NCBI GenBank assembly: GCA_029851415.1
Contig: CM056743.1
Location: 74,669,186 to 74,733,185, forward strand
Length of the DNA: 64,000 bases
DNA from: Eretmocerus hayati
Lineage: Eukaryota > Arthropoda > Insecta > Hymenoptera > Aphelinidae
Direction: 5' to 3'
A model generated the notes under the pieces. That model was not told where the DNA came from, did no database searches, and saw only the letters and a list, made by a program, of their open reading frames with translations. Both the position numbers and the translations under genes were made by a program. Of this stretch, positions 37,811 to 61,722 are shown one piece after another (position 1 is the first letter of the stretch; every line of letters begins with the position of its first letter).

Positions 37811-37868
<58 letters not shown>
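37626..37868. repeat. Left TIR of Polinton B with (CT)n and (TA)n tracts
   Basis: Positions 37626-37816 match, inverted, 51769-51630 plus 50585-50490. A (CT)n run lies at 37720-37743 and a long (TA)n run at 37815-37868. The CT tract corresponds to the GA tract into which the LINE inserted on the right side. Confidence 0.88.
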
Positions 37869-37871
<3 letters not shown>

Positions 37872-39419: not shown

Positions 39420-39546
39420 ACTAAAGAACTGTTCGTATCGTAGTCAAGCTACGTACTGATATATTATGAAACATTCAACTATACGGTGACTTAGAATATA
39501 TTCGTGCGAGATTGTCGGTCATGAATTTCGCTGATCCTATGCGAAT

Positions 39547-39843
39547 ATGACTATCCGCAGAGTGTCGGTTGAGAGCCACGACGTGCCGTCGAAATTTTGT
39601 CTGCATTTTAGTACTCCTTCGAATTCGCATCGATTCCGCAGTCCGTTTCGACAAATGCTGACACTTGAGAGTAATCCACGTATATTAAAACCGTCAGTAC
39701 GTCTTTACAAACCAAATAATGCACATCGTCGAGACGCATTTTCTAGCTATCAAAATGAAGAGGTCACTAGTTCAGTGTATTTTGGCCGTTACTTAAATTT
39801 TTTCGTCTTGTGTAATAAGATACAGAATTTTCAAGCGCCGTAG
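39547..39843 (+). CDS. Putative first left-arm plus-strand frame of Polinton B (unknown)
   Basis: A 98-codon frame from ATG 39547, rich in Ser, Arg and Asn. It lies divergently from the minus-strand gene with a 130-nt gap that could hold a bidirectional promoter. The last 30 codons look non-coding. No family is recognised, and the coding status is uncertain. Confidence 0.3.
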   Translation: MTIRRVSVESHDVPSKFCLHFSTPSNSHRFRSPFRQMLTLESNPRILKPSVRLYKPNNAHRRDAFSSYQNEEVTSSVYFGRYLNFFVLCNKIQNFQAP

Positions 39844-39844
39844 T

Positions 39845-40114
39845 GGAGATGAGTTGGAAGTGTTGCCTGTGGGTGTACTCAAAAGAAAATTGCAGAGTCT
39901 CATTGAAGATCTGCCTATTTGGAAGCTGGAAAAGGCATTGAAAGATAAAGTGTTCGACAGTGTCGAGTTACTATGTCTCGTACACAATGTGATTTCATAA
40001 TGTGGTATGGAGAACTCACTGATCGCCCGTAGAATCACCGCTGCAATCCGCCGTAATTACAGAAAAATCAACGACACCTTCTACAGTCGTCGATTACGGA
40101 TGTTGAGCGATTAA
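39845..40114 (+). CDS. Two short frames upstream of the Polinton B polymerase exons
   Basis: A frame through about 39850-39999 encodes VGVLKRKLQSLIEDLP followed by a helical, charged end, and then stops. ATG 40007-40114 gives a 35-residue basic peptide (MENSLIARRITAAIRR at the start). They could be a small bicistronic unit or decayed exons. I recognise neither. Confidence 0.3.
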
Positions 40115-40134
40115 TTCATTACAATCATTCAGAG

Positions 40135-43100
40135 ATGGAAGCTGATATTGAGGGAGAATCTAATCTTATTGAAGCTTGTGCGACGACCGAAAAGAATGTG
40201 AATATGATCATGTCGTCCGATCTCAATATTGGAATTAATGAACAAGGTAATTTGGAATGTGAACAAATTCGTGCACTGAAGAGAGAGTGAACGGACGAAA
40301 ATATTCATTTATTATGTTTTAGGAACATCAGATGGTGATGCCCCGCTTTTTGGGGGAAGAGATGACATGAATATTTCACATTCACTGATCGATTCATCTG
40401 CGAACGAAATGATCCCTGTGAATGGTACTGAAGAAAAGACCGTCGGTGGTAAGTTGTGTATTGATAATATTATTGACAATTTATGAGGATTTCTATAACT
40501 GTGAGTGGAACTTCAATTTCAACATTTCAGATTCAATAGGAAGCGTTGCACCAAACGGTAATATGGAAATTTCTGACAATGTCCAACTCTTGGAACAAAA
40601 AGATATGGAGTCTCTACCTCTAGTAGGTACTTCAGTTGCGAACGAGAATATCACTACAGACCACACTAAGAAAATTACTACTGATGGTGCGTGTTTTATT
40701 GATATCGACACTGATATTGATTTTGATGATCTAGAGATTTTTTGTGATCATGAGTGGAACTATGATTTTGAAGTTTCAGACTCAACAGAAAGTGATCTCC
40801 CAAGTGGGATTGTGGAAGCTTCTCAAACGTCCGATATGACAACGTCAAGAAAAAGATTAAGAATGACTGGAGCCGATATGTTAGAGGAGCAATCTGACTC
40901 AGGATTGACCAAGAGAATGAGAAATGAAGGAGATGACGATTCATCCGAAACAGATCTATCCGAAAACGACGACTCCATCAATAACGAAAATGCTTCAACT
41001 GAAAATAATGGTGAGCAGAATTTGCATTCACCTAAAGATTCTGTAAATGAGCCTACATATATATGCATCTCTGATTTTTATCATTGTGGTTCATGAATCA
41101 GAAGAATTATGATTAAAATGTATTCTAATTCACGATTTTGATTTTTTTCATATTCTTCTTCACTAGAATTTTTCAAAAATCTCAAAATTACGATTACGTT
41201 CAATTTTTCTTTCAGTTTCCCAACTATAACGTTTCTTTCATACAAATATTCATCAATAAGTACTTGATGCAAAATATTTCTCAGACGATCGTCTAATTTG
41301 TGCCAAGAACAAATGTCATAATGAGGATTTATTTGCTCATCAACAAGAAGTAACAAAATTCCGATTGGAATTCCAAAAAATTCATACTTTTTAATGGGAA
41401 ACTTTTCTAAATTCCACAAGACGGTAACGATGTTCAGCAGATTGGACGAGGTATGGACGATGCTGATCTTGGAGATGATGATGAAGAGTTTCTCGATACT
41501 CTCCCTCCAGGACATCGCTTTGCGATTACCGACGAAACGAGGCGATTTCACAAGCGATTCCGAACAAGAGGACGTCGGGTAACTCTACAATTATTGCGTC
41601 CAGAAGGAGAGAATGCAGATCCGATCATGTGGTTAGAGTGTGCGATCCGTGATATTCATACATATTTAACAAGTGGAAGTTTATCTAATGATTTCATCGG
41701 TATTTCGTTTCAAACAAGATTTTTATCCCGAGGTAATCTATGGCTATCTTTCAGGCCTGTAGATGAATTTTTTTCGATGATTTGTGGGGAATCCAATTGT
41801 GAGAGTTCCGCAGGGTACAGGTAGAGCTAAGCTCACACTCGAAAATGTTTTCAAGAGATCAATTCTGCGGATCAGGAACGATGATAGAATGTGTTTACCT
41901 CGCGCACTGGTAGCTGCTCATATATATAGCGAGCGAGGTATGGAGCGTGGTGAGTACAATACGTTGAATATACGCTGGAACAGAGTACGACGATATATGG
42001 GTGCGTACCAAACGAAATTGGCAAAAAAATTAGTCAGAGACGTGGGAGTGACAACTCCTCGAAACGGATGTGGTATTCATGGAATTATTCAATTCCAAAA
42101 TTTCTTAGCAAACGACGGGATCGCGATTGTTGATTACAATTTCAAGGGTCTCGGCCGTGGCGATGCTTCTATGTTTGATGGCTCAGAAATTGTGGTAGGC
42201 TTGAAAGGGCAAATATCTCACACTCTTAGAATACTATTTTCGGAAAGATCTAAACACTATATGCCTATCCTCAACATATTTCAAGCAACGGGTAGTCAAG
42301 GTTATTGCATACCACGTAATAAATCATACAGATATGCAAATGAGCACAAATGTCCTGATAAATGCTCGGCGTGCTCCAAGACACCTAAATGTACAAAATC
42401 TGACATGATAAAATGTGATAAGTGTTAAAGAAATATCTACGGTAGAGAATGCTACGAGAGACACTTGAAATCCGGTTCGTACATAAGTATCAATAAGAAG
42501 AAATTGAGTGTGTGCGAAGGTGTTCATTTTTGTATGAAATGTTTTAAGATTGCAAAATTGACGAACAAGATCAAAGTTCATGAATGAGGTGTCTTATTTT
42601 GTCACGTATGTAAATGCAGTCGTCCTTACAATCATCTATGTTACATGCCTAAATACAAAGAACACGATACTAGTGCTCCAGACGATTGTAGGCGGAAAGT
42701 CATGTATCTTTTCTATGATTTTGAATGTCGACAGGATGAAACTATGCGAGGAGATAAGAGAGTCAAAATTCACGTCCGCACACTTTGCGCAGCGCATCAA
42801 GTATGTACTGACTGTTTAGATAATTGAAATCCAAGAAGTATATGTTCCACTTGTGGTGTGCACGAGTACATTTTTAAAATCGATCCCGTCAAACAGCTAC
42901 TTGACCTAGTACTGAGAGATAACACTGAATTCAAAGCAATTATTTGTATATCACACAATTCAAAAGGATAGGACGGACAGTTTCTTCTTGATCGTCTCGT
43001 TAAAGAGGGTCGTCAGCCGTCCCTCATCATGAACGGGACAAAAATTATGTCAATGAAAGTTGGTCGGACGTCATTCATCGACAGCTTAAATTATTTTCAC

Positions 43101-45353
43101 ATGTCTCTCGATAAGCTTCCTAAAGTTTTTGGCCTGAATGACATTCTCAGAGGGATATTCCTCCATGAATTCAACACTAAAGATCACCAAAATTATCGAG
43201 GCGAGATGCCGGATCTGGAATACTACTCCCCAGATACCATGAGTGAAAGTGCTCGAGCCCAATTTCTAAAGTGGTACGAAGATACCGTTTTGAGCGAATA
43301 TATATTCGATTTTCAGAGAGAAATAGTTTAATATTGTCGTACAGACGTCGATATTCTTCGGAGATCATGTGTAGAGTTCCGAAAATTGTTCTCGAGTTGG
43401 GGAAATATCGATTCGTTTGAATCCAGTATTACCATAGCCGGTGCTTGTATGAACTCGTACAGAAAAGATTTTTTAGAAATAGATACCATAGGTATAATTC
43501 CTGCCGGAGGATACAGAATGAGTAATATGCAATCCCGAGTCGCCATCGAATGGCTATTGTGGCAGAGTCGTCAAAGTAGCATTCATATAATTCACCCTCA
43601 GGATAATCGAGAATTTAGGACCAAGGAGGGGTACGTAGTTGACGGCTATTATGAGAATCCCGGGACAAATGAAAAAATCGTGTACCAGTTCCACGGATGT
43701 TACTTCCACGGATGTCCGAGATATTTTCGCGTGAACAGAGAGAAGGAATTGAGTTCCAATGAATCAATGGAAGAGAGACTCTTGAGAACTAATTACATAT
43801 CAGACAGGATAAGATCATTCGGATTCGAATTGATAGAAAAGTGGGAATGCGACTTTGATCGCGAGAAGCGCAGTGATGATCAACTGCCCGAATTTTCAAA
43901 AACGATTGAGAAAGAATTGAGGTGTACGCAGTTGATTGCACGTGATACGTTTTTCGGCGGTCGGACAGGAAATACTGCACGATTAGTGGAAGTGGGGAAA
44001 TCAAAGAGAAAGATTCATTTTGTCGATGTTTGTTCACTTTATCCATCGGTTTGCAAATCTGGTGAATTTCCTGTGGGCCACCCGAAGATTTATGCTGGAA
44101 AAGAAAGTGAGGAATTTCTTGGGAGGGATTTGGATATCACAAAAGTAAGAGGTTTGATAAAATGCACTGTTTTGCCCCCTTCGAATCAGTATTTCCCAGT
44201 TTTACCAGTGCAAATGCATGGGAAATTACTCTTTCCACTTTGTAGAAAATGCTGTGAAGAAATGAGAAACGGGAGCTGCGTACATTTACAGGATAGCGAG
44301 AGAGAAATCCAAGGTTCATGGGTGTCTCTTGAATTGCAAGAAGCTGTCAAAGCCGGCTATAAAGTCACGGAAGTTCATGAAATATGGCAGTACAGAACGA
44401 CAAAGTACTCGCGTATCACAAAATCCGGGGGTTTATTCGCAAACTACATCAATAGTTGGCTCAAAATAAAGCAAGAGTCGAGTGGTTGGCCGGCAGAGTG
44501 TACCGATCACGAATCAAAGATGCGATACATTGACGAGTATGAAAGAGTCGAGGGTATAAAGCTTGATCCAACAAAGATAGAGAAAAATCCTGGAAAACGG
44601 GCTCTGGCCAAGATGGCATTATGCGCTTCATGGAGAAAATTCGCTCAGCGGGAAAACCTCACAAGAACAGAAGTTGTGAATACGCGGGGACGATTTATGG
44701 AATTGTTTACGAGCCCAGAACTTGGAATTACAGGTATTCTTCCTGTCAATGACGACACGTTATATGTATCGTATGTACATTAAATCGAAGCACTCGAACC
44801 ATCGTGCATGACGAACGTTGTTATTGCTTCATTTGTCATCGCTCAAGCACGTCTTGTACTTTATGATTATCTCAAAAAGCTCGACCGAAGATGTTTGTAT
44901 TTCGACATGGACAGCCTTTTACTGTATACCGACGATCCAAGTCGAGAATATATGCCAAAGACTGGATGTTTCTTGGGTGATTTGACGAATGAACTTGAGG
45001 CATACGGTCCTGATAGTTATACCAAAAAATTTGCATCGGGAGGGCCCAAATTTCATGCATATATTGTCTGCAAATCTGATGAGGAAGAAGAAGAGGTGTG
45101 TAAGGTGAAAGGAATTACGCTCAATTACTGAACAAAAGAGTTGATAAATTACAATTGGCTCCGAAGCTATATCCAAGGAGAGGTTAATTCACATCTCATC
45201 GTAGAATACGATGGAATACGTCGAACTGAATTTCATGATGTTGTCACGCGACGAGAATCAAAAACATGCAAACCTATTCATACAAAGAGATGGTTTGTAA
45301 ATGATGAATTGTCATACCCTTATGGATACAAAACAGAATGCTGTGGAAGATAA
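40135..45353 (+). pseudogene. polB: Protein-primed family-B DNA polymerase of Polinton B, heavily disrupted
   Basis: Four small 5' exons (40135-40246, 40323-40448, 40531-40686, 40780-41010) encode an acidic N-terminal extension. The internal ones are multiples of three, and all junctions are phase 1. The core begins at about 41421. A frame change near 41790 coincides with loss of a segment present in A. Stops lie at 42426, 42585, 42825, 42969, 43329, 44781 and 45129. The Exo I site FYDFE is at about 42715. Motif A (DVCSLYP, ~44028) is intact, motif B is altered (CASWRKFAQ, ~44630), and motif C reads FDMDS (~44900). It is a long-dead copy. Confidence 0.9.
41081..41420 (-). CDS. Antisense frame inside the last polB intron of Polinton B (unknown)
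   Basis: The 410-nt interval between polymerase exons is much longer than the other introns (76-93 nt). On the minus strand it is open throughout, with a hydrophobic/charged sequence (FFGIPIGILLLLVDEQ, then WHKLDDRLRNILHQ). An acceptor-like TGGAATTTAG precedes it on the minus strand. It could be a small nested gene or chance. No family is recognised. Confidence 0.25.
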
Positions 45354-45431
45354 AAAATTTTGATACTATTTTTGCTCATCCTGACATCATCCCATAATCG
45401 AATTCTCAGATATTAGCGGCTACGCATGATC

Positions 45432-45586
45432 GTCGTCAATCAGCTGATAGCGACAATCCACGGCGCGCATCGTTCGCCGTATATGAGCTTATAGGGCGAA
45501 CGATAATGCGCGACGATCGTCATATAAGCTTATGGGACGATCGATCACCGGTACGATCGCCTATATTAGCTTATAAACGGCGATCG
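45432..45586. promoter_or_regulatory. GC-rich hairpin array with AGCT-centred loops (Polinton B, polB-ATPase spacer)
   Basis: Four successive stem-loops are visible. GTCG/CGAC (45432-45435, 45451-45454) has loop palindrome ATCAGCTGAT. ATCGTTCGCC/GGCGAACGAT (45469-45478, 45495-45504) has loop ATGAGCTTAT, with outer CGCGCAT/ATGCGCG pairing. CGATCGTC/GACGATCG (45514-45521, 45536-45543) has loop ATAAGCTTAT. CGATCGCC/GGCGATCG (45554-45561, 45579-45586) has loop TTAGCTTAT. The last three AGCT cores are 41 nt apart. Element A has a comparable array at the same place with different stems. Confidence 0.75.
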
Positions 45587-45654
45587 AGCCATTCGATCAT
45601 GAAAATGTCGCGCGCCGTGGCCGCCGCCGCCGCGGTTTGAAGAGTTTCGCGTGC

Positions 45655-45690
45655 TATAAAATCTCTGCTCAGCTGAAATGATCATCATCC
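45655..45690 (+). promoter_or_regulatory. TATA plus initiator of the Polinton B ATPase gene
   Basis: TATAAAA starts at 45655 and TCATCC puts the initiator A at 45687, 32 nt away; ATG is 10 nt further at 45697. Both distances equal those in element A. Confidence 0.65.
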
Positions 45691-45696
45691 ATCGAC

Positions 45697-46317
45697 ATGG
45701 AGACAAAGTGGTCGCATCCATTCACGCTTTTATGCTGAGGACCAAGTTCTTGTGGAGAGAGTACTTGGGTCAAGGCTTTTGTCCAATTTCGAGATTACAT
45801 TTGTGACACAAAATTCGAGAAAATCATCTTCTACTACTCTGAATGGCAGTCAGCTTACACTACTTTTGACTCTTTGGTAGAATTTCGGGAAGGTATCCTA
45901 CAAATTTCTGACTTTGGCAACGATGACAGACCAAAATTGATCGTTATTGACAACTTTATGCGACAAGCATCGAATCCTATTATAGTTGATTTATTCTCAA
46001 AACATTCGCACCATCACCGCTTGAGCGTCATTTTTATATCGCAAAATCTTTTCCATGAATCACAGAGAGATATTTCGTTGAATGTTTCTTACCTTGTGGT
46101 TTTCAAAGATCCAAGAGATCGGGCGCAAATACAGCATCTGGCAAGGCAAGTTTACCCCGAGAATCCACGTTTTATCAGAGAAATTTTCAAAGATGCCATC
46201 GCAAAACCACATTCATATCTTTTATTCGATATGACCCAATCGGCACCGGATGAACTTCGATTTCGGACCAATATTTTTCCAAACGAAGGCTACGAATGTG
46301 TGTATGTACCCAAATGA
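45697..46317 (+). pseudogene. DNA-packaging ATPase of Polinton B, stop plus Walker A mutation
   Basis: ATG 45697 opens METKWSHPFT, as in A. A TGA follows within the next ten codons, just before the P-loop (about 45735-45737). The P-loop reads GPSSCGES, with Glu in place of the invariant Lys. Walker B is LIVIDNFM (about 45940), where the second acidic residue is Asn. The C-terminal FRTNIFPNEG and VYVPK end is intact and gives the normal length. Two independent catalytic losses imply decay without selection. Confidence 0.88.
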
Positions 46318-46321
46318 GAGG

Positions 46322-46359
46322 TATAAAAGAGTGACATCTGATTGTGCTTGTCATCATTC
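46322..46359 (+). promoter_or_regulatory. TATA plus initiator of the Polinton B small basic protein gene
   Basis: TATAAAAGAG starts at 46322, five nt after the ATPase stop. TCATCATT provides an initiator A at 46353 or 46356; ATG is at 46371. TATAAAAGAG with a following ACATCTGAT is also found, on the minus strand, at the region C array promoter. Confidence 0.55.
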
Positions 46360-46370
46360 GATAGGATGTG

Positions 46371-46709
46371 ATGGCTCTGTCCACATCGTCGCCTTTTGGT
46401 GCAAAGTATGCCTCAATTTTACGAGCTCTCTGTCACTTGAGCAAAGATCAGATAATCGCTGCTTTGCGAAAAGCTGCGAGGGGTCTCATCAAATGCATAT
46501 GCGAATGTGCTTTGAATATTTCAAATGGTAATATTCCACTGAATGACTACGAAGAAAGGAAATTAAGGAAATACGCTGAAATTTTTCGAAAACTCATTAT
46601 ACCACGCGGTACTTGGAACAGCAAGAGAGTCGTCATCATCCGAAAAATAGCTGAATTTCTCCCGACATTGTTATTGCCCGTACTCGAATACTTTTCCGAG
46701 AAGAAGTGA
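46371..46709 (+). CDS. Small basic protein with hydrophobic C-terminus, Polinton B (112 aa)
   Basis: It is the counterpart of 22845-23240. The shared core is IKCICECALNI (about 46480-46515) followed by a basic helix and a hydrophobic end (IAEFLPTLLLPVLEYF). The frame is intact. The real start is probably ATG 46371. It is followed 12 nt later by the accessory gene. Function is as for the A copy, probably virion core or membrane-active, by analogy. Confidence 0.65.
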   Translation: MALSTSSPFGAKYASILRALCHLSKDQIIAALRKAARGLIKCICECALNISNGNIPLNDYEERKLRKYAEIFRKLIIPRGTWNSKRVVIIRKIAEFLPTLLLPVLEYFSEKK

Positions 46710-46721
46710 ATCTTTTCAATC

Positions 46722-47600
46722 ATGGAACACGCTCGAAAAATGGTCCTGGTGCCCGAAGCCATGGTTAGAAATATCCAACTAATGAAAGATTTTCAAATAC
46801 AGCAAGAGAGTGCTACAGAATCGCCCAAATCTGTGCAGACTCCTGGGAATGTGTCATCCAGATTAGACAACGACATGTACGACATCCTGCACGCCGATGT
46901 CAAAGACAAGCGCCAGAAATGAAAGCTCTTTTCTCAGGCACCTCAGAGGTTCCTCTCCTTTAACGATGACAATCACGAGAGTAGTAATGGCCAAACTGAG
47001 TGCGCAGAAAGTACTGATGACGATGCTCTTGATAGCGGAGGGGATGGCGTGACATTGGTCAAATATTCGGATGAGAATATCATCAACAGCGTTCCGAATA
47101 CATATAGATGGAAATGTGAGCAGCTACTCAAATGCTTACATGGCTGCGGTCAAGAGCACATCTCTTGGGACGACTCAGGCACCGTACGTATAAACGGTAC
47201 CGCTATTCCTGATCCAAATATTGTGGATCTCGTGAATTTGGCTGTCAGATGGAGGAAATCGTACTCAGCGGTTGGGGAGCAAGAATTTGCTAATTTTTTG
47301 CAGAAATCTACTATCCCGAGAGAATTTATTGACAATACCTCATTGTTGAATGATGAATATGATACACCTCTGGCGAATTTGGAGAGGAAGTACGGCAGAA
47401 TTTCTCGGCATTCTAGCGACTCGGCTGTAATACCTAGTAATTTGGCTGACCCGCGGGAGAGTGGAGACGGAAAGGAAGCCGACAACGTAGAGGATTGCAG
47501 TGAAGTTTTTAACGAGACAGCTGATTCTACACTTGGGTATAGTACACCTGGCACTAAGAAAAAGAAGCCTTCGTGGGTTACTTTGACACTCAATAAATGA
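46722..47600 (+). pseudogene. Polinton accessory protein before integrase (B copy, one in-frame stop)
   Basis: ATG 46722 begins MEHARKMVLVPEAMV. One TGA at 46920-46922 splits an otherwise single 292-codon frame. The conserved segment reads WDDSGTVRINGTAIPDPNIV (about 47165-47225) and the C-terminus is acidic, then Lys-rich (TKKKKPSW). The stop TGA overlaps the integrase ATG (47597) as ATGA. Compared with A the C-terminal half is in frame, so B shows the family's true layout better. Confidence 0.75.
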
Positions 47601-48694
47601 TGGAAGAGCTACTCGAAAATTATTATTACAATCCCGGAAACCCTGCATCACTCTCTGGAATAAAAAGTTCCCTTGCCGAGCTTAGATCGAGAAATATTCA
47701 CGTTACGAGGAGACAGGTCACAAATTGGTTAGAATCTCAAGATGCTTACACGCTTCATAAGCCGAGGTGATTCAGATTTCAGAGACGACACTATAACGTT
47801 CCCAATGTTGATGATGTTTGGGAGGCTGATCTCATGGATTTCCGTTCCATCAAGGCTTATAACGAAGGCTTCACTTTTGTACTCGTAGTAATTGATGTTC
47901 CATCAAAATACGTATGGGTCGAGCCGTTGATAAATAAGACTTGCATCAATGTTACGGCCGCTTTCGATCATATTTTATCACGTAGTAATAACCGTGTTCC
48001 AATGCTCTTACAGACCGATCAGGGGAAAAAATTCGAGGGAGGCCATTTTCAAAAACTGCTCAAAAAATACCATATTAAATTTCGAGAAGTTCTGAATGCA
48101 GAATTTCATTGTGGTGTTGTTGAAAGAGTCAATAGAACGCTGAAGAGTCGTTTGTGGCGCTATTTTACGAGATTTGATACAAAAAAATATATTGATATTT
48201 TACAACAGTTGGTGGAGTCTCACAACGGAATGAAAAATTCAAGCATCAGAATGAAACCATGTGACGTCACTCTCCAGAATGCTCAGGAAGCTCGTGACAA
48301 TTTGAGTCGAAAATACGAGAAACATTTCGGTCGTGGTAGGCCTAAATACAGTGTTGGAGATCTTGTTAGGATCAGTACAGCGTCGCACGTCTTTGTGAAA
48401 GCATACGAAGTCGGATATTCTGAGGAAATTTTTAAGATTGTGAAAATATCCGGTTCTCGGGCACCATACGCTTATAACCTGCAAGACTTACAAGGCATCG
48501 ACATCGCTGGTATTTTCTACGAGCAAGAGCTTTCTCGTGTGAGGAAGAATATTGATGACGACAATTTTATCATTGATAAAATACTTCGGACTCGCGGATC
48601 TGAACGGAACAAAGAATACTTTGTATCTTGGGCAGGATATCCTGCTAAATTCAACAGTTGGTTGCAAGCTGATCAGATTCATAATTTAGAATGA
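47597..48694 (+). pseudogene. int: Chromodomain integrase of Polinton B, DDE triad kept, one stop
   Basis: ATG 47597 starts MMEELLENYYYNPGNP. The signature ESQDAYTLHKP (about 47725-47760) is followed by TGA at 47768-47770, the only lesion. The catalytic residues are present: Asp in WEADLMDF (about 47825), Asp in LLQTDQGKKF (about 48015) and Glu in GVVERVNRTLK (about 48125). The C-terminal chromodomain-like end (WAGYPAKFNSWLQ) precedes the stop, which overlaps the penton ATG (ATGA, 48691). This copy shows what element A has lost. Confidence 0.92.
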
Positions 48695-48984
48695 AGGACG
48701 AATTTTACGTTGTTTCAAAGAGCAACAATAGCACCAGATACTTCCCTGAAAACGATGCGTCGAACTTTACAGCACTCTTACCACATGAGCTGCAGATAAG
48801 TGGGTCATGGACTGTCGCAATAGTCGAAGTTCAATACCCTCAAACTTGTATGCACCTGCAGCACAACACTGATAACGTGCGAGTCACATATAAAAACTTT
48901 GACCAACGCTCAACGAGCGATCATCGTATTATTGATAATGAACACCTTGGAGATATTGGATATTCTTCGAGATCTTCCGGTTGA
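48691..48984 (+). pseudogene. Penton-type minor capsid protein of Polinton B, truncated by deletion
   Basis: Only about 82 homologous codons remain (YVVSKSNNSTRYFPEN, SGSWTVAIVEVQYPQ). At about 48935 the sequence switches to the start of the protease gene, so the remaining residues to 48984 are out-of-frame read-through. The rest of the penton, the core-like, major capsid and following gene present in A are missing. Confidence 0.85.
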
Positions 48985-49522
48985 TACGTACGGTGCTTTT
49001 GCTTCGGACAGGATTCCAATGGTATGGGCATAGCCTGCAGCGATTGTTGCTAATTGCTCAGATCATACAAAGATGGTAATACATTGGGTTGCTTTTTTCG
49101 TCGATATTTCCGGTTTTGGATATTTTTTCGTCAGTTTTGGCAGCCATCCGTTTATCAGAAAACACATTGATCGACTCAAGAGAAATTGTAAAAGTTTCAA
49201 ATATAACACGATGATATTGCAAAGTGAGAAATCAGATGTATGCGGCCAATTTTGCATAATGTTTTGTCATTTCTTGTCTAGCGGTTTTGGAATGAATAGA
49301 TTCAATAGTATGATCACAAAAAATCGTAAAGAGAATGACTCGATAGCAAGAAATTTTCATATTAAACTAAAAAAGATACACTCGTTGGTAAAAGATCGAC
49401 ATGGTAACAAAAAACGAATAACGTTGGATTGCGGTGGTGATTGCTGCAAAAAAGTACTGTGCAGAAGTGATGAGACGAACCAAAAAGACTTATCCGCTGT
49501 CTCAGCAAATGCATCGATATAA
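48938..49522 (+). pseudogene. pro: Adenain-like protease of Polinton B, inactivated
   Basis: ATG 48938 opens MNTLEILDILRDLPVDTYG, like the A copy. A TAG at 49031-49033 interrupts it. His is present (IHWVAFFV, about 49083) and Cys is present (DVCGQFCIMF, about 49240), but the acidic residue of the A copy (YFDSYG) is replaced in the aligned stretch FFVSFG. It is thus doubly inactivated. The C-terminus is Lys-rich and longer than the catalytic domain. Confidence 0.82.
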
Positions 49523-49596
49523 CTTCATCAAATTTTCAATAAGCTCACCAGTCGCCAAGCACACTTGCTACCAGCACGTTACAAATTCAAGTCACC

Positions 49597-49995
49597 ATGG
49601 CTTTCCGAATTCTCGCTGAACCAAAATTCCTCGGCTCTACTTATGCTGTGAATAACAGCGAGTCAAAATTCGTGACAGTGTCTTTACAACTGCAACAGGA
49701 CAATACATTCGTACCTGTAATCTCCTGAGTTGGGTTATCGCAAGGAATCGAACTCACTCAGTCGGAATGGAATCTACTGCAGGGAAATTTCGGCGAAGTG
49801 CAAGCTTTCTTCGAGAGCGACGTGACCACGAGATGGAGGGCTCCGATCGTCATCAATGACAGATTAGCGGTGATCTTTACAAATACATATAATTCTAAGA
49901 CGATTGTAATTGAGAAAAAGGGTGGTTGTAACGCCTCTGTTGAGCAAAACGATGGAGAGCCAGCGAAAATAAATCTCTGTATGTGCCAAGTGTAA
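49597..49995 (+). pseudogene. PC4-like ssDNA-binding protein of Polinton B, one stop
   Basis: ATG 49597 gives MAFRILAEPKFLGS and a strand-rich stretch, with TGA at 49726-49728. The same frame then reads QGIELTQSEWNLLQGNF, which aligns with KPVTFDADGWERFKQVF of the A copy and with the final strand/helix of PC4. The frame ends at 49995 next to a donor-like GTAAGT. About 130 codons remain against 266 in A, so the C-terminal half is absent or in a further exon (a 70-codon frame lies at 49998-50206). Confidence 0.55.
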
Positions 49996-50489
49996 GTTTT
50001 AAACATGTGACTTTCGGGAATCTGATGAATCTATCTGAATTAATAGTGTGCAAAATCGATAAATCGTCAAAAGTGCAGAAGTGCCTAAGTGAATGTAAAA
50101 ATACAATGGCGCAAATTGCCAAAGACAATAATATTGTAGCAAACAATGATAATATTGTATCAAACGATAATGGTGTGACAAATTCAGTAAGAGAGATATT
50201 GTTATAGAGAGAATGAAAGATGAATATGACTTTGTAACCAATGAGTACTTATTCGACGATATATTCGAGGAACTGTTCACATTTGTTAACTTTAATTGAA
50301 TCATGCGGTGCATAGAAAGAATAGAATGCACGCAGGTGAATGAATTTGAAAAATAAAATCGCACTTTTTACTTTACTCGCATACTACCTATCTTATATGT
50401 ATACATTCCGATGATACACCACAGGCATGCAGAGCCATTTGAAAGAATCGTGCTAACTTATCACTCACATGCACTCGATATATGAGAAC
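49996..50489. other. Right-arm remnant of Polinton B
   Basis: One short frame (49998-50206, with an Asn/Asp-rich repeat-like end) could be a decayed exon of the PC4-like gene. Otherwise I see nothing before the right TIR. Confidence 0.35.
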
Positions 50490-50563
50490 TATATAGTTAA
50501 AACTTCAACGATGCAAGCATTCACAGACAGAGCACACATATACTTACTCTCTCCATTACCATG

Positions 50564-50566
<3 letters not shown>

Positions 50567-50648
<82 letters not shown>
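50567..50648. repeat. (GA)n microsatellite
   Basis: About 41 GA units, at the 3' side of the LINE insertion in the right TIR. Confidence 0.95.
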
Positions 50649-50651
<3 letters not shown>

Positions 50652-51629
50652 ATTGATTGATTGATTGATGCCCGTTTATTCGTCCGAAGACAAAAAAGAA
50701 AAATAATCAGTTACATATGGTAATATATATCACAGATCAATAGTGCACATTAATAAAAATAATGAAGTCATTTGGTCAAGGACAAATCTTAAGTATATCA
50801 CAATTTGTGACTAGTCAGGTAGCACTCAGGAGATTCACAAACTTCATAGAATAATATAAGAATATAAAAATATAAAAAGAAATGGCAGGGCTCACAGTCA
50901 TATTACAGAAAAGTTCAGTCAATTGACGAAGGGTCACACGTATACTTATAATTTTATTCTAGATGAACGAATCAAGCAACAAGTCAGCCCAAGCCTTTCA
51001 AAGTTTAGAGATTGAAGTAATGCTTCTTCTCCACATCAATCCTCTGGGGAGACTGTGTGAGCAAAAAATCCTTCATAGCCTCTTTAAATAATGACATTTT
51101 CCCCAGCTGCCGAAAGCCCGGAGGGAGAAAGTTCCACAAATGAGCACATTGAACCTGGAAAGATCTTCTTCCATATTCAAGTCTCATATTGGGAACTTTG
51201 AGTACCCGCTCTTCTGCATCACCGCGTGCGGGGCGTTCAGATTGGTACCTGGTGAACATCGCAGCTAGGTAGCCAGGCTCTCCTAAGTGCATGATCTTGT
51301 GCATTAACAGAGCTGCGAAGTACATTCTCCGCGAATCAGTACGTAACCAACCCAAACGCTCCCTAAACGGGGTGATGTGCTCGTCTCTCCTAAGATCAAA
51401 AATGTACCTCACACATGAATTGCTTAGTCGTTGTATCCGTTGCCGCTGTTCGTCCGTGGCGTCGAGGTACACGACCGTGCAATAGTCTATATGCGGTTGA
51501 ACCAGGGACTCAACTAGGCGAACTCGGAGAGGTCTGGTGATACATGCCCTAAAAAACCGCAATCCATAGAGGGCTCTGTTGACTTTCTTAGTTACTTGGT
51601 CGATGTGCGGTTTCCACGTCAGTTCACTG
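50649..51629 (-). mobile_element. 5'-truncated CR1/L2-like LINE inserted in the right TIR of Polinton B
   Basis: The minus-strand frame 51562-51005 encodes the C-terminal part of an ORF2 (LVESLVQPHIDYCTVVYL, then a Leu/Arg-rich end), intact for 185 codons. The 3' tail, read on the minus strand, is AATAAACGGGC followed by (ATCA)n at 50649-50670. Simple-repeat tails rather than poly(A) are typical of CR1/L2/RTE types. The 5' end is truncated at about 51629 inside GA-rich TIR sequence. It is the same family as positions 1-690. Confidence 0.85.
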
Positions 51630-51769
51630 TCAAGAGAGAGAGACAGACAGACAGAAAATCAGAAAGAGAGGGAAAGAGCGCCGGAATGCATGCGATACCG
51701 GTCGGCCGCAGCCCAAAAGAGTGGGGCGTGGTGGGGGCCGTCGGCGGCCCATAGTGAGAGGTATCTACT

Positions 51770-54259
51770 TACGTAATATTAGTGGTCAAGCCACCCCAGT
51801 TCTTTTGCAGTACTCTTGCACCTCCAGCCGAATAACAAGTTCTCGGTTACAAGTTAGACCATAACAATTCATGGTCCATCGACAACTTATCTTCAACTCT
51901 ATCTTGTTCAAATTCCTACGTAGAAGGAAATTGAAATTCCATGATTAAGTGGGCGCTGACTGCACGCCCTCGATCGCACTGGAAATCTGGCGGGGTTGGG
52001 TCAACTCCCACGGGTCGGGAACAAGGCATCACCAACAATTGGTATTCCATGATTTTCGACGTCGGGTTCCTCTGGTCCCCGACGGAAGTGAACAAGCGCG
52101 TGAATTAAGAGCGGGACAGCTGTGTGAGTTCAAGTTCATATGGGATCTATCGAATTAGTTCGATAAATTTGATCGGACTTCAAGATCAATGATTGCTGAC
52201 CTCATCTGCGATGTTAGGGAACTTTTAAGACGCATAGACGAAATAATTACCCGGATCAGGAGCCATTTTACACTCAAGACCACTCTCTGCACCGATCGAA
52301 AAAAAAGCAATAAGCATAGCATTCGATTATTATGCGACTGACTCGCTTCGAATCTACAAGAATATTCACCAAATTCCCTGGAAACATAATTGAGAGATCC
52401 ATCCAATGTGGATTGTACAAGTAGCTCAGAAATTCCCGGATATGGAGATAGAATACATTGCTTCATACATTGAAGATACGGTACATGGTCTCTGAATATT
52501 CTCAGTTCCTGGAGGCCTCATTCGAATCATACAGATTGTCTCATTCCATTTCCAAAGAATTCGTGAGACATTCTTGTAAACTTGAAACGAGATAGTTTCA
52601 TACTCACCAGATACAATTCTCCTAGCTGGTTTTTCTCTCGGTGTCGCGAGTGATGACGATTACAATACTGCCTTGGTAACCTTTTATTTCATCTATGCAA
52701 TCTGGGGAATCATCAAATTTGCAGATGAGGCAAGCAATTATTCATACTTGAATTCGATCAATGATGTCAATCGAAATCAATCGGGCTGATATTCTCTTTA
52801 GTTCCGTCGGGGCCCAGAAACTCTGGCGGTGAGAGGCATGGAATACCGACTGTCGGTGATAGCCTGACCCAGACCCGCCAGAGTTAGTTCAACCCTGACA
52901 GCTTTTCAGTGTGGGATAGACAGTGTTCATTTCTCCATGATCGTCTACAACCCATTTTGGAAATTTTTGGAGACCCTCGAGAAAGATCCCTCGATATTTC
53001 TCCAAATGGTTCCTTCATTCAAGTTATGAGGGATCCTTGTTACAATACAGGGATTCTTCTCCCTATCGGAGTAAAACCTTTTCTCATTTCCAACAGATTC
53101 CAAGATAGATGCAGTTTCCGGGATATCTCATCAACAATTTTTGCCGGTGTCAACCGAATCCACGGAACAGTGTTCTCGACAATCTTCCGGCGCATTGAGG
53201 TATGTCTCCGGGTTCTTCGAAATTCAGAGAATCTTCTGGGGATTTGTGTGGTGATTTAACCATGCATAACACACCTTCTGCTGAAATTTCGAGGAGCCTG
53301 TCCATTTTGCTTTCGAAGTTGGAAGTTCGAGCTCGTAACACGCGAAGGATTGGAACGGCTCAGCAGAACGCAACTTCTTTGGGCTGTTCTCGCGAATGCT
53401 CTAACAATTCTTTAGAGAACTCGCTAAAAAATTGATATGTCATTCATTCAAGTGTTATCTTCATCCTTGCAAAAATAGGGACCCGTGCCCACTTATTTTG
53501 TTTGCACGAGGGCTCGAATGTTTGTGATTTTTGTCCGCGCGCAATTCTAATTTTCCGCCTCGCGGAGAGTGTCTGAGTGTGAGCATGTACGTGCACGAGC
53601 TGCTTTGTTGTGTATATGCGATTATACATGAAAGATGACGAGGTCGCGTTGCTATCAAAACAACACGGGTCGCTCAAACTTTCCATCCGGATTGTCCTAG
53701 GAGACATACCTCAAATTATGCTAGATATAGTGAATATGGAATATAGTAGTATACGAGATTTCGCAAAATCTCGGAAAATTCGGAACAAGGATCCCTCAAC
53801 TTGGAGTGATCGCATCATTCGAAGAATTGTGGGGGAATCTCTGTGTCAACCTGTGCGAATCTACGGCGGGATACTTGATACTCTTCCTGATCGAATGGTT
53901 ACACTCCGGGTCATGGGAAGTACAAGTCGTGGCGATTGATGTTTTGGTCCTATTGGACTACACAGGGAAGATGAATCTTACTTGCCATTCAAAAGATGAG
54001 TCGATTGCATTTAGGTTGAAGCTATTCTTGATCGAATGAAATAACGCGATGGAAAGCCTGCGGTTGGGTTTTGGAATTATCTCCATGGTCCTTATCGCAA
54101 TTTGAAGCAAGATGTATACGTTCGATACAATCAATAATAATGAGGAAGTATAGATGATAGAAAGAGGCTTAGAAAACCACCTATGAAGTGCGTCTCTCTC
54201 ATATCTCAGACTATAAGATAAAAGTTCAGATGACTAATTATCATTTCGTGACTCCATTT
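51770..54259. other. Host DNA, no gene recognised (3' flank of the Ac45 exon)
   Basis: Only short, overlapping frames occur. An inverted pair CTCTGGCGG/CCGCCAGAG lies near 52820 and 52880. The last few hundred bases should contain the 3' UTR of the minus-strand Ac45 gene, but I could not place its poly(A) signal. Confidence 0.4.
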
Positions 54260-54790
54260 TCATTCTTGAGCTGATATTGCGATAGTCTTGCTTTTGGGGT
54301 CGTCAAAATGATCCATCGTTCGTATATCCACTATCATCGTGAGGCCCCAAATTACTATAACTGCTAGAATGATAGTAACGAAGATTCCAGTCCAAATAGG
54401 AATACTCATGAAACCAGTACAATCTATAACTTTCCCGAAGGAGTCAGTGTCCATTTGCAATTGCAGGTTTGACAAGGTGAGCGATATGATCCTATTTGCA
54501 TCCTCGCTCCCGCGGGCGATGAAAGTTTCCCGAAGACAATGATATGATGAACCATCAGGGAGCAGAATATCATTCTGACTCTTCAGAAGCAGCCATGTTG
54601 CAGTTTTCTTGTCTTGATAATAGAAGCCAATCAGTTCATCACCATTTCCACGCACTTTGAATTGGGCAACAAAAGTGTAATCTTCGCCATCTCCAGTTCC
54701 AAATGTTATGGAGAGATTACGGATCTTATCAGTCATTTCCAGGGAGACATTCTTTGGCGGAAGTTGCAGAGTGTATTCCTTATTGTTGAC
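54260..54790 (-). CDS. ATP6AP1: Last exon of V-ATPase accessory subunit Ac45 (ATP6AP1)
   Basis: The exon starts after a good acceptor (TTCTCTCTAG, minus strand) and ends at the stop. It encodes the lumenal beta-rich domain end, a single membrane segment (about GIFVTIILAVIVIWGLTMI) preceded by DCTGF, and a short cytosolic tail (RTMDHFDDPKSKTI). Ac45 proteins share this C-terminus, and the tail is known to carry trafficking signals. The gene helps assemble and target the vacuolar proton pump. This is the only confidently identified host gene; upstream exons must lie to the right of 54790, possibly beyond the window or unrecognised. Confidence 0.85.
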   Translation of the reverse strand, partial: VNNKEYTLQLPPKNVSLEMTDKIRNLSITFGTGDGEDYTFVAQFKVRGNGDELIGFYYQDKKTATWLLLKSQNDILLPDGSSYHCLRETFIARGSEDANRIISLTLSNLQLQMDTDSFGKVIDCTGFMSIPIWTGIFVTIILAVIVIWGLTMIVDIRTMDHFDDPKSKTIAISAQE

Positions 54791-57337: not shown

Positions 57338-58457
57338 TGTGCCAGCTCTTCGTGCGAGTCTGAGAGATATCATATCAGATGGGTTTCACGCCAAGACGAC
57401 CTACGAGAAGGAGTCATCTCTCGAATTCATTTCGTTACCAGCTGCCAAATCCCACGAGTAGGGTGAGTTATGCCTGTTCAGCGCCCATTAAGGGTAGTTT
57501 TCACTAGGTCTATATAAGGGAATAAATAAGGGTGGGAACTACCCTTACCTAGGAGATGATGCACCCCAAACAGGGCGTCATCCTCGGCAACCTGGGTAAG
57601 TATTGTGCCATAATTACTAATAATTACGTAGTTTAGTTAGCTATATGCATAGTTTATCTAGCTATATATCTACACTATGCATATAGCTAATTATATATGC
57701 GCGCAAGCATATAGCCATGCGCGCACGTGTATAGCTATGCGCGTGGCTCATTAATCTCGCCCCTCTCTCTCGCTACGGTCCTCCTCTGCATCGCATACCT
57801 ATCCAATCGGGCCCCTCTCGATCGCAACAGTCCCTCCCAGATTTCCGCAGCCATCATGCCGTAGCAAGATCTCGGGAGGTGCTGCCACCAGCCTTTGCTC
57901 ACACCAACTTTTGGCTATGTTTGCCGTCGGACGATGATCAAATCCTGTTATTCTTTCCCCGTCGCATGATGATCTGCTGCAGCTCTTTTAATGCAGTTTG
58001 ATGCAAGCTTTTACGGTTTTTTTTTACATGAAATCAGATGCCTTTCTGCTGTGGCTTTTACATGTAATCAACCTGCAGCTTTGCTTTGCTGCAGCTTGAT
58101 GTATAATGTATTGCATAAAACGATGATGATATATTTTTGCTATGGCTTTTACATGAAATCAAACTGCAGCTTCGCTGCAGGAATTTCTGAACAAAGTTTT
58201 AATCACCTTGAAAGGTAGTAGAAACCGGTTTCTCCACTTGAAGGTCTCAGAGATGAAATCTCGGAGATCCTTGGCTGGAATTTTGGCATAGTAAAGTCAT
58301 CCTCAGTTTCGATTCCGTTGAGAACCGAGTCGCTCTTGATTTCGTTAAGCTTATATCGGTCGTTGAAATTGATTGCTCGAGACAAACGACTCGCTCAAGC
58401 ATTTGAAAATCTAGTGCTTATCATAAGACTCGCAGTCTTCTAGCATCTGTTTTAAAA
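57338..58457. repeat. Low-complexity and tandem repeat region
   Basis: At 57600-57760 TATGCATAG and CTAGCTATA motifs alternate in both orientations. At 57960-58190 a roughly 65-bp unit (TGCTGCAGCTT..., GCTTTTACATGAAATCA) repeats imperfectly about three times. No gene is seen until the small exon at 58458. Confidence 0.5.
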
Positions 58458-58921
58458 ATGATGGACATAATCACTCACTCAGGTGAATAAAATCTGAATG
58501 ACTCTTTCTACTTTTTGTAGGTAAAAGTTCATTCTCATATTGTTGTGTTGTCATTTCAGGACAAGCACAGTTTCTGTACAATTTATGGAGACCAAGAATG
58601 TTGTATGGTAATATGCCAAATTATGACATACAACCTCCAGTCCAACGTAATAATTTATCAATTAAAAGAGTGCTTCGTAGTAGGCACTTCCATACGTTTA
58701 CTTTTTTATTCAAAGTAAGGCGCGAGGTTGATCGGGAGATGATGTTTAGGAGGAATGCACGGATATACCGTGATTCACCAGCAAACATCGATCCTCTGTA
58801 TCACGGAGATATCAACGCGGTTGGAGAGTATTTGTTCTTACAAGCCGATTTCCAAGAATTTTATTTCATAATCAATAATTTTACGTTAGATAACCTTACG
58901 CTTGTGCATCAATTATCTTGA
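58458..58921 (+). CDS. Region C: two-exon gene, plus-strand relative of the tandem exon family (128 aa)
   Basis: Exon 1 (58458-58482) encodes MMDIITHS and ends in phase 1 at G/GTGAAT. The 77-nt intron ends TCATTTCAG at 58559. Exon 2 (58560-58921) encodes a domain ending DPLYHGDINAVGEYLF and NLTLVHQL. This matches the C-half consensus of the seven minus-strand units: Y-x-x-G-[DN]-[IV]-x(3)-[LIV], then V-x-L. The acceptor phase is the same. It is convergent with the array, with stops about 135 nt apart. The family is unknown to me. Confidence 0.6.
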
Positions 58922-58992
58922 TTTCCAAAGGAACTTTATTTCTTGTAAAATGGGGGAGGTTAAGAATAACAAAACATATGATGAATTTCACG

Positions 58993-59031
58993 TTTATTGT
59001 ATAGACATAACTGAATATACGCACAAATTTA
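58993..59031 (-). terminator. Poly(A) signals at the end of the region C array
   Basis: On the minus strand AATAAA occurs at 59026-59031 and 58993-58998, 24-60 nt after the stop of the last unit. I see no AATAAA in the few nucleotides between units, so these appear to serve the whole array. Confidence 0.6.
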
Positions 59032-59054
59032 TTAAAATCATTACATTTTTTTCA

Positions 59055-59377
59055 TCATTTCCTATCTTTTAATACTACAACTTGTACATTTTCAATATTT
59101 GATCGATATATATGTAGAAATTTAATAATTTCTCCAACATCGCCTCGAAAATAATGTGATATTGAATAAGATGAATCAAATTCACATTCATCTGTATCAA
59201 CTATCCACCTACTAGTGAGGTAATCTAAGAATATTGGGAATAGACAGTTACTCTCAAAGATGATAGAAAAAATAATAGTTTTATCCATTTTTCTTTCGAT
59301 TTCTTGAAATGTTTCCAGAGCTTTGAGATGTTCTTCGTTCGATTCGACGAGGACTGATTTAATTGCTCTCAATTGTT
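59055..59377 (-). CDS. Region C array unit 7 (last)
   Basis: The acceptor TCATTCCAG precedes the unit, which begins with two nucleotides and then CAA TTG. The conserved half reads RWIVDTDECEF, then HYFRGDVGEIIKFL and NVQVVVL. No ATG lies near the start; the first in-frame Met comes after about 38 codons (MDKTIIFS), so it needs a coding upstream exon or a shorter product. It overlaps the end of unit 6 by 18 nt. Confidence 0.6.
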
Positions 59378-59729
59378 CTGGAATGAAAGATTTGATTTGT
59401 ATTGAACCTTATTTCCGGCAGATTTAATTTCAATTGAACGATTTGTGGGTTCTTTATAATATGAAAGCTTTCAAATAATTCTTTCAAGACATCGCCTATA
59501 TCTCCTCTTATTAAATAATCGCAAGAAATTGAAGGATTGTAATTGCATTTTGATGTATCAACTATCCAAATACTATCTTTTAATTCTTCAAAGGTGGTAT
59601 TTTTACAATTACGCTTAATATTGAAGACAATTGAATATATGAAAATGTGCTCGATTTCCCAACACATTAAACAATAAGTGTAATAAAATTTACGATATCC
59701 AATCAACTCCTCGATCATTTGTTTTTGAC
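59359..59729 (-). CDS. Region C array unit 6
   Basis: The acceptor TTTCCGACAG ends at 59730, and an in-frame ATG follows at 59718. The domain reads IWIVDTSKCNYNP, DYLIRGDIGDVLKEL and NPQIVQL. The frame continues across the unit 7 acceptor before its stop, so no intron separates the two. Confidence 0.65.
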
Positions 59730-60067
59730 CTGTCGGAAATTAACAATTGTTATTCTAGGACGAAGAAACACCAATTGAGGATTGACTATACATTTCTTAT
59801 ATTTTTCTAGAAATCTCAACATTTGAAATACGTCTCCTCTCTTATAATAATCTTTCGAAATCAATTTATTATATTCACATAAATTGAGATCGATTTTATA
59901 TTTACTCTTCTTGAATTTGTTAAATTTCTTATTAACTTTCGCAGTTCTTTTCATATTGAAAATTACAGAGTAAATATAAGTGAATTTAACTTTAACATTA
60001 CAGATAAATCCTAAAATTTTATTGTAATCCACATGTTGTAGCTTCGCTCTTAAAATCTCCCTTTCAC
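59715..60067 (-). CDS. Region C array unit 5
   Basis: The acceptor ATCTTTGACAG ends at 60068; its TGA is the stop of unit 4. The unit has no early in-frame ATG (starts GERE). The conserved half reads KYKIDLNLCEYN, DYYKRGDVFQMLRFL and NPQLVFL. Lys-rich middle. The frame reads into unit 6 for 14 nt before stopping. Confidence 0.62.
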
Positions 60068-60070
60068 CTG

Positions 60071-60426
60071 TCAAAGATTTTTCAGTCTCAATCTAACGAA
60101 TTGTACATTTAAGATACATGGCATATCTTGATCGAGTATACCGACTATGTGATGAATATTTCCTATAGCATAGTACTCTGCGGTTAAATTTGGATTATAG
60201 TTTGAATCAGTTGGGTCTACTTCCCAACAACTATTCCTTAATTCAGTTAGAGCATGAGTATGCCAAGCCCATGGATGTTTTGTGAAAATCATTGTTGATA
60301 TTTGACTATAGTCATAGAGCGATTTGTTCTGCTCATATTCAGCGAATACATCTTCTAGCTCGAATTTATTGTGGGAGAAAAACAGTTCAATATAACCCAC
60401 GATACGTTGCACAACTCTCATTTGCT
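60071..60426 (-). CDS. Region C array unit 4
   Basis: The acceptor ATTGTTTCAG is strong, and AGCAA then ATG (60421) follows. The conserved half reads CWEVDPTDSNYNP, EYYAIGNIHHIVGIL and NVQFVRL. It stops 4 nt before the unit 5 exon start. Confidence 0.65.
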
Positions 60427-60436
60427 CTGAAACAAT

Positions 60437-60786
60437 TTACGTTCGTTCTAGTTTCACAATTTGGATAAAAGTCATGCAATGATTTGAGTTTTTTTCTAAC
60501 ATTTCAAAAATTCGTTTCAGAGATCCACGATAATAGAAAGTAGAAGCGAACTTGGGTTTAAATAGACAACTTTCATCTATAGTCCATCCACTGTTCCTCA
60601 ACATCTTAAAATCATACTCTTTTGAGGTCCAATAGTAGTTTGTTCCAAAAACTAGAGAAAATATTACTCTATCATCCAAAAATCGTTCAAAACGTTTGAA
60701 TTCTTTGTAGACGATTGTGCAACTGTCCCGTTTTTCATCATGGTCCATTAGTATGTTCAGCAATCTCACTAGAATTAGCATTTGCT
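60437..60786 (-). CDS. Region C array unit 3
   Basis: The acceptor TATCCTTCCAG is followed by AGCAA and ATG (60781), the same start as unit 4, which marks units 3 and 4 as closest relatives at their 5' ends. The conserved half reads GWTIDESCLFKP, FYYRGSLKRIFEML and FIQIVKL. Confidence 0.65.
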
Positions 60787-61129
60787 CTGGAAGGATATTT
60801 GATTTTTAAATCTACAAATTGAGCATACTCAAGACAAAAACCGTAAGATGTAATGAATATGAATATTTGATGAGCGTTGCCAATGAAAAAATATGGACAA
60901 GGCAAGCTTGCTACATATTTTCTAGTGAAATCAATTTCATAGTTGCTGAAAACTAATAGTTTCCTTTCGAAATAGGAGGGTGAATAAAACACATTTGTTT
61001 CATATAACAGGTGAAAGGTGCATGAGTCATCAAAGTCTGACTGGTTCGTAAGGTAATCGTGGAAGGCTTCATAATAACTCATTCTTTCGTCGCTATATAG
61101 TCTTAGATTTGAAAGACATCCCTCCAATA
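60738..61129 (-). CDS. Region C array unit 2
   Basis: The acceptor GCGCTCAG ends at 61130. An out-of-frame ATG precedes the first in-frame one (MSYYEAF). The conserved half is diverged: NYEIDFTRKYV, YFFIGNAHQIFIFI and YAQFVDL. The frame runs 48 nt into unit 3. Confidence 0.6.
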
Positions 61130-61150
61130 CTGAGCGCTGGACTAGAAGAA

Positions 61151-61491
61151 TTATTTGTTTTTTCTCATCCTGATGTGCACAGGAAACATCTCTTTAATCA
61201 TATATTTAAATTCATGAATAAAATGCACCATCTCACAAATATTCCCCTTTTTAAAATACATCGTATCGAGATTTGGTCTAAACATTGTTTTCTGATAATC
61301 TATCTCATATGGACTATCTATTAGCTTCTTAAAATAATTCGTTCTTTCATAATAGAAATTAGATGTTGTAAAAACTATGCTAAAATCATAAGACAAGTCT
61401 AAATGGGGCTCGATCATGAGAAATAGATTGAAAGCTGCTAAGTAGTCTCTCTGCTTTTTGACTCGCACTGCCTCTAAGATCTCTAAATGCC
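61151..61491 (-). CDS. Region C array unit 1 (first)
   Basis: It follows a 60-nt intron (61551-61492) with donor GAGG/GTAAGT and acceptor CCTCTTACAG. The unit starts GHLEILEAV; the first in-frame Met is about 33 codons in (MIEPHLD). The conserved half reads PYEIDYQKTMFRP, MYFKKGNICEMVHFI and FPVHIRM. It ends 22 nt before unit 2. Confidence 0.65.
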
Positions 61492-61722
61492 CTGTAAGAG
61501 GCACATGCAATCAACTATAGGAAATAGTTTGGAAAACATGTGACTACTTACCCTCGTAACCGATTCCAAAAACCACTTTTAAGTTGTATTGCGCCTTGGT
61601 TTATACTGTTAGACCTGCACTAAATCAGCTCTCAGACTTTTAACAAATTCACACGGAAATACACAACGGATAGAGACAACAGCGATAGACTGATCAGATG
61701 TTAGAATTCGCGCTCTTTTATA
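61492..61722 (-). promoter_or_regulatory. Promoter and non-coding leader exon of the region C array
   Basis: On the minus strand TATAAAAG starts at 61722 and TCAGTC puts the initiator A at 61691, 31 nt away. The leader 61691-61552 contains no ATG and ends at a consensus donor, followed by the 60-nt intron to unit 1. A 59-codon frame (61788-61609, starting MVATPPVSKRRQLCPNLVDG) overlaps this promoter on the same strand and is an alternative reading in which the TATA would be coding. Confidence 0.5.

Follow-up and report, generated by a model that had tools for sequence, protein, structure and literature searches.

Layout of the locus

The window, by which we mean the whole 64,000-nucleotide stretch of the Eretmocerus hayati genome that was analysed (C3:74669186-74733185), carries on its minus strand seven homologous open units that follow one another head to tail from 61491 to 59055, as read from its open reading frames. 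All seven begin in the same phase directly after an AG: unit 1 (61151..61491) runs for 112 codons after a split codon, and unit 2 (60738..61141), unit 3 (60437..60786), unit 4 (60071..60426), unit 5 (59715..60067), unit 6 (59359..59729) and unit 7 (59055..59377) run for 133, 115, 117, 116, 122 and 106 codons, respectively, unit 6 being 110-119 codons long in most other copies in which it is open. The units of the window copy are 15-32% identical to one another, and a profile built from them found no further match below E 0.3 in the 64-kb window. The original prediction of seven homologous units is borne out, the array being real, on the minus strand and open throughout; its measurements shift slightly, with a spacing of 338-360 nt in place of 338-362 nt, and with stops that either precede the next unit's acceptor by 3-10 nt or lie 15-49 nt beyond it, where they had been placed within 22 nt of it or up to 48 nt past it. 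No promoter was seen between units in the window copy. Just below unit 7, a hexamer scan of the minus strand found poly(A)-signal-like AATAAA sequences at 59033, 58998 and 58940 (58935..59033); the same scan found AATAAA within units, at 60370, 60023 and 59870, and the earlier claim that poly(A) signals lie only downstream does not hold.

Upstream of unit 1, again on the minus strand, the window sequence contains a promoter-like pair, TATAAAA at 61722-61716 and a TCAGT initiator at 61693-61689, followed by a predicted leader, or start, exon (61552..61691) with a phase-1 donor after 61552 (donor score 10.3-10.9; splice sites were scored with an approximate matrix of our own, with a donor cut-off of 4). 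From there a predicted first intron of 60 nt (61492..61551, minus strand), with consensus donor and acceptor, leads to unit 1. Farther upstream lies a coiled-coil-like gene (63249-63054 and 62984-62002, minus strand); its intron, placed by eye, is short and in phase 1, its donor scores 8.2, and the gene matched no Pfam family at that family's cut-off. Beside the array is also a DUF8207-like open reading frame (63999-63316, minus strand), interrupted by an in-frame stop at 63819-63817, with relatives in two ants under the label PF26634. On the array's other side, a minus-strand reading frame at 54263-54790 presumably resembles a V-ATPase accessory subunit, judging by eye.

The array is carried by a 21.2-kb element, C3:74726642-74747819. 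A terminal inverted repeat of 281 bp (57457..57737) matches positions 4356-4634 of L029, outside the window, in inverted orientation at 95.7%, and a 6-bp target duplication, cccacg, is present on both outer flanks; together, the inverted repeats and these flanks set the bounds of the element. Among the 19 copies L010-L028, the match ends at window positions 57454-57457 in 15, and one more runs off its stretch. The element encodes a protein-primed type B DNA polymerase (PolB; L009:6665-8350, minus strand; PF03175, E 1.7e-23), a retrovirus-like integrase (L009:5268-6233, plus strand; PF00665, E 3.4e-14), a double-jelly-roll capsid protein (L009:3119-4333, plus strand; PF21738, E 6.4e-102) and a phospholipase A2-like domain (L009:1257-1640, plus strand; PF08398, E 2.5e-14), while the L009 reading frames that are candidates for a packaging ATPase and a cysteine protease matched no Pfam family at E 0.01. 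By its gene content and ends, the carrier is a Polinton, separate from two further Polinton-like elements in the window.

These two elements, at 11440-35720 and 37623-51772, were judged Polinton-like by eye from their open reading frames and have inverted repeats of their own; the reading frames of one are ~32-53% identical to those of the other, and the element at 37623-51772 looks broken. A coarse test of their reading frames of at least 70 codons, at E 1e-4, found no similar tandem family in either, the sole exception being a short repeat at 14.3-14.9 kb.

Facing the array from the plus strand is P8, a predicted two-exon gene (58458-58921) whose start exon (58458-58482) encodes MMDIITHS plus one base and ends in a phase-1 donor. 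The donor GT is kept in 17 of the 18 sequences that span it (it is lost in L016) and the acceptor AG at 58560 in all 18. Three copies, L026-L028, carry a variant of P8 that is ~69% identical and has the same plan; over the array these three are close to the other copies, as if element ends had been exchanged. In two comparisons with L026, the dN/dS-type ratio of P8 was 0.32-0.35 in frame versus 0.77-0.84 in shifted frames, a pattern indicating that its frame is under selection. P8 was not listed when the window was compared with a seven-unit profile built without it (one built with P8 among its members matched it, as it was bound to), and profile-profile comparison of P8 with the units gave a probability of 0.7% and a score of 14.8, versus 18.2 for the best of 50 column shuffles. 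Its fold model is poor (pLDDT 56), and in three diverged copies the 2 kb that follow the array contained no P8 that we could find.

Leader, acceptors and start codons across copies

We searched the 692-Mb genome (17 contigs, four of which measure 123-205 Mb) with unit 6 and scored 150 of 421 candidates, of which 74 matched at 58% identity or more; several of these come as two fragments of a single copy, and the genome holds, as a lower bound from this search, more than 60 copies of the array. Two of the matches, C3:87728668-87729012 and C3:87730488-87730832, lie ~1.5 kb apart in opposite orientation and are both 94% identical to unit 6 of the window, apparently an inverted pair of arrays. For comparison we used 25 copies (L010-L028 and L030-L035), making 26 sequences with the window, all from this one genome. 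They include a diverged subfamily, ~73% identical in DNA, with full arrays in L030, L031, L032 and L035 and a partial one in L034. Sixteen copies and the window form a 17-row alignment, from which L011, L014, L017, L018, L020, L022, L023, L033 and L034 were left out for insertions or missing parts. In 8 of the 17 aligned sequences, the window copy among them, every one of the units is open, and the other seven of these eight keep the start codon described below, with a single mismatch to the leader peptide in L016 and L024.

We aligned the leader in the 17 sequences and looked for it in all 26, of which 22 proved to have it; in the other four, L017, L020, L033 and L034, the match to the array begins below the leader. 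A donor of the form GGTRAG (GGTAAG or GGTGAG) is present in 22 of 22 leaders, found with a search pattern that itself contained the donor and tolerated four mismatches. In most other copies the last 25 bases of the leader exon are the codons for MVFGIGYE plus one base: the start codon is in register in 19 of the 22 leaders, with the peptide exact in 13 and differing by one mismatch in six. Of the three without a usable start, two (the window copy and L030) have lost the start codon and the third, L023, carries an indel. The window copy's loss falls at 61576-61574, and because of it this copy is probably nonfunctional; on this reading of its sequence it probably cannot make the seven proteins, while other copies keep the start. 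The TATA/initiator leader with its donor that was originally proposed is present, at 61722-61552, but in the window copy it lacks the start codon that 19 of 22 leaders have. Of the four diverged copies, L030 and L035 preserve the spacing between the TATA and TCAGT motifs, although the region around them aligns poorly; the other two, L031 and L032, carry different sequence at the expected place.

Between L027 and L031, 4 of the last 24 bases of the start exon differ, all synonymously; in the same pair, 39% of the units' third codon positions and 19 of 59 sites of the first intron differ. Other pairs show private changes at 4-5 of the 24 bases, and by eye those in L010, L024 and L030 change either the peptide or its start codon.

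The acceptor AG is kept in 17 of 17 aligned sequences for units 1, 2 (at 61141), 3, 4, 5 and 7, and in 16 of 17 for unit 6, where it is lost in L032. For unit 2, the acceptor first proposed at 61129 was rejected, being absent in all four diverged copies, and was moved to the in-phase AG at 61141; another AG at 61136, likewise conserved, was also rejected because it is out of phase and soon followed by a stop, though its score of 6.2 under the approximate matrix exceeds that of the in-phase site. With unit 2 so shifted, the claim that all acceptors fit one phase-1 donor stands, both AG and phase being kept across copies. Acceptor scores in the window copy range from 2.9 to 9.4 under the same matrix, units 2 and 5 being the weakest at 2.9 each.

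That no donors lie between units proved nearly right: besides 61552 (10.5), the sites passing the cut-off of 4 in both subfamilies are 60068 at the unit 5 junction (7.2), 60770 in unit 3 (5.7) and, weaker under the approximate matrix, 59607 and 59186. At the starts of units 5 (60068/60067) and 6 (59730/59729), on the minus strand, the acceptor AG is directly followed by GT, so that either junction could serve as a donor again, and the unit 5 junction, CAG|GTGAAAG, is conserved; recursive splicing at these two places is a thought that the sequence invites.

In none of the units does an ATG occur in the interval from the preceding in-frame stop to the acceptor. Past the acceptor, the first ATG is out of frame in units 2 and 5 (judged by eye), and the first in-frame ATG lies at codon 25, 20, 38 and 30 of units 1, 2, 5 and 7 (counted by eye), inside sequence that aligns with other units. 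With no ATG at the unit heads and the in-frame ones of these four units 20-38 codons deep, the start must come from upstream. In units 3, 4 and 6 an in-frame ATG comes early, at codon 2, 2 and 4, respectively, and these three may have starts of their own. A non-coding leader combined with starts borne by the units was rejected because the first ATG is out of frame in units 2 and 5 and far inside units 1 and 7.

Selection on the units and their predicted proteins

We estimated dN/dS by the NG86 method, dropping codons with stops or gaps. Between L027 and L031, the per-unit values are 0.07, 0.13, 0.14, 0.14, 0.20, 0.08 and 0.16 for units 1 to 7 (range 0.07-0.20; bootstrap upper limits 0.18-0.40), and the pooled value is 0.13 in frame versus 0.92 and 1.07 in the shifted frames, a contrast that excludes chance. 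L027 and L030 give a similar picture, with per-unit values of 0.06-0.21 and a pooled value of 0.14 versus 0.95 and 1.17. Averaged over all open pairs between the subfamilies, dN/dS is 0.08-0.22; dS in these pairs, at 0.77-2.5, is in part saturated. Copies of the closer subfamily give a pN/pS of 0.15-0.55 among themselves, and maximum-likelihood omega over 12 copies is 0.22-0.50, a range that includes decay after insertion. By these substitution patterns, all seven units are under purifying selection; the original prediction had named dN/dS near 1 across units as evidence against it, and what we find instead is 0.07-0.20. In a tree of the units, each one pairs with the matching unit of the other subfamily, to which it is 57-77% identical, from which it follows that the seven-unit order predates the split of the subfamilies and has not been mixed by conversion.

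The predicted isoelectric points of the units span 5.1 to 10.2, and this range, together with their strong divergence, suggests separate roles for the encoded proteins; that these are diverged accessory, host-facing roles is our guess. The structure modelling proposed earlier for the unit family was run on unit 6, and AlphaFold2 returned a fold of fair confidence (pLDDT 82.6, pTM 0.72) with two helices followed by a small alpha/beta part. A structure search with this model gave no convincing match, the best having E 0.86 in the PDB and 0.52 among viral models. Protein searches with unit 6 and with the unit alignment yielded no informative match, and Pfam and PHROGs comparisons of the units gave two PHROG hits (E 0.0042 and 0.027) and one Pfam hit (E 0.062), each to a single unit and judged to be chance. 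Viral contigs searched for the DUF8207-like protein, unit 6 and the capsid protein returned nothing useful.

A proposed choice among terminal exons

We consider it likely that the seven units are alternative terminal exons of one Polinton locus, served by a single promoter and start exon. The original prediction of one promoter choosing among seven units through their acceptors is supported by the conserved start exon, the acceptors and selection across copies, the splicing itself being deduced from these. In the order of events that we envisage, the TATA/initiator pair would drive a single pre-mRNA over the whole array; the eight-codon start exon, through its phase-1 donor, would be spliced to one of seven phase-matched acceptors, which would compete and each be used; every mRNA would end at a common site below unit 7, with whichever units follow the chosen one left as 3' untranslated sequence. 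The predicted products are seven nearly whole proteins of 115-142 residues with a common N-terminal tag of eight residues. The units had been described as C-terminal domains, a term that does not fit a common part of only eight residues, while the idea of alternative 3' products survives, in the form of almost whole proteins. The fuller proposal, to which we give slightly less than even weight, is of a splice-selected Polinton repertoire, undescribed in a virus or transposon, in which one promoter and an eight-codon start exon would place exactly one of seven host-facing proteins on each mRNA.

Several features count against the seven units being alternative terminal exons of one locus. Under the approximate matrix, the acceptors of units 2 and 5 score low, and the conserved AG at 61136 scores higher than the in-phase one. 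The AATAAA hexamers inside units 4 and 5 could end transcripts early. To these are added the 3 of 22 leaders, the window's among them, that have no usable start codon, the six with a mismatch in the peptide, and the two of four diverged copies without the TATA/initiator pair at the expected place.

The units might instead be a row of ordinary two-exon genes, in which all or most units would have a separate promoter and a start exon lying concealed in the unit before, a two-exon plan like the one predicted for P8 on the opposite strand; weak donor-like sites within the units would suit such an arrangement, but 61552 is the only strong donor conserved in both subfamilies between 61700 and 59000, and the units abut within 49 nt and are coding over most of their length, all of which makes this improbable. 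Still less probable is splicing of the units to exon 1 of the coiled-coil gene upstream, which would give them a longer common N-terminus. The donor at 63054 scores 8.2 and, by eye, ends in G in phase 1, yet between it and the array stand a poly(A)-like hexamer, the TATA/initiator pair and the ATG-bearing start exon, which are conserved, and the coiled-coil gene's own second exon fits that donor across a short intron of 69-70 nt, again by eye.

Just as doubtful is a polycistronic array resolved by spliced-leader trans-splicing at each acceptor, a reading that the operon-like position of the acceptors right after stops would favour; a conserved start exon lies in cis in the matching phase, and we know of no spliced-leader trans-splicing from insects. 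Tandem paralogues behind one promoter also recall a silent archive feeding unit 1 by gene conversion, or a set of dead duplicates in units 2-7. This we rejected on the dN/dS values and the unit tree, given the purifying selection on every unit and the strict grouping of each with its counterpart in the other subfamily, and we give it next to no weight.

Our preferred reading, one leader and seven terminal exons, has partial parallels. Polintons and adenoviruses are kin through the double-jelly-roll capsid. As outlined for adenovirus 5 in the relevant part of PMC7070027, transcripts of the E3 region join a shared non-coding leader to acceptors just upstream of each open reading frame; as in the E3 and late units, one promoter and leader would serve acceptors just ahead of several reading frames in the array, a prediction that its sequence and conservation fit. 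In the adenovirus, according to the same account, the tripartite leader is non-coding and the reading frames have their own start codons, whereas the array's leader carries a conserved start codon and eight residues, and its seven members, in contrast to the adenovirus reading frames, are all paralogues (PMC7070027). The loci mod(mdg4) and, similarly, lola combine a shared 5' coding region with any one of numerous alternative 3' coding exons, and the 3' exons of mod(mdg4) are described as having independent promoters and being joined through trans-splicing (PMC12692577). The array would resemble mod(mdg4) in pairing a common 5' coding part with alternative terminal exons, a plan that its phase, acceptors and selection fit; unlike that locus, its common part is eight codons long and not a substantial protein body, its exons abut, and no promoter is seen between them (compared with PMC12692577). 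In its PolB, integrase, capsid protein, inverted repeats and 6-bp target duplication, the carrier is like the Polinton/Maverick elements and adintoviruses treated in part of PMC8363768, and no description of such a splice array in Polintons or adintoviruses was found in a literature that was open-access with few subscription journals (including portions of PMC8363768 and PMC11071296).

We infer that the array combines leader splicing in the adenovirus style with a bank of 3' exons in the mod(mdg4) style, with the start codon in the shared exon. If true, it would represent leader-to-acceptor choice outside the adenoviruses, and in a purer form, with a common start codon and each terminal exon selected separately. 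The array would then be naturally suited to testing how seven 3' splice sites, 338-360 nt apart, compete for one donor, and would illustrate how a compact virus-like genome could run a family of seven genes from one promoter.
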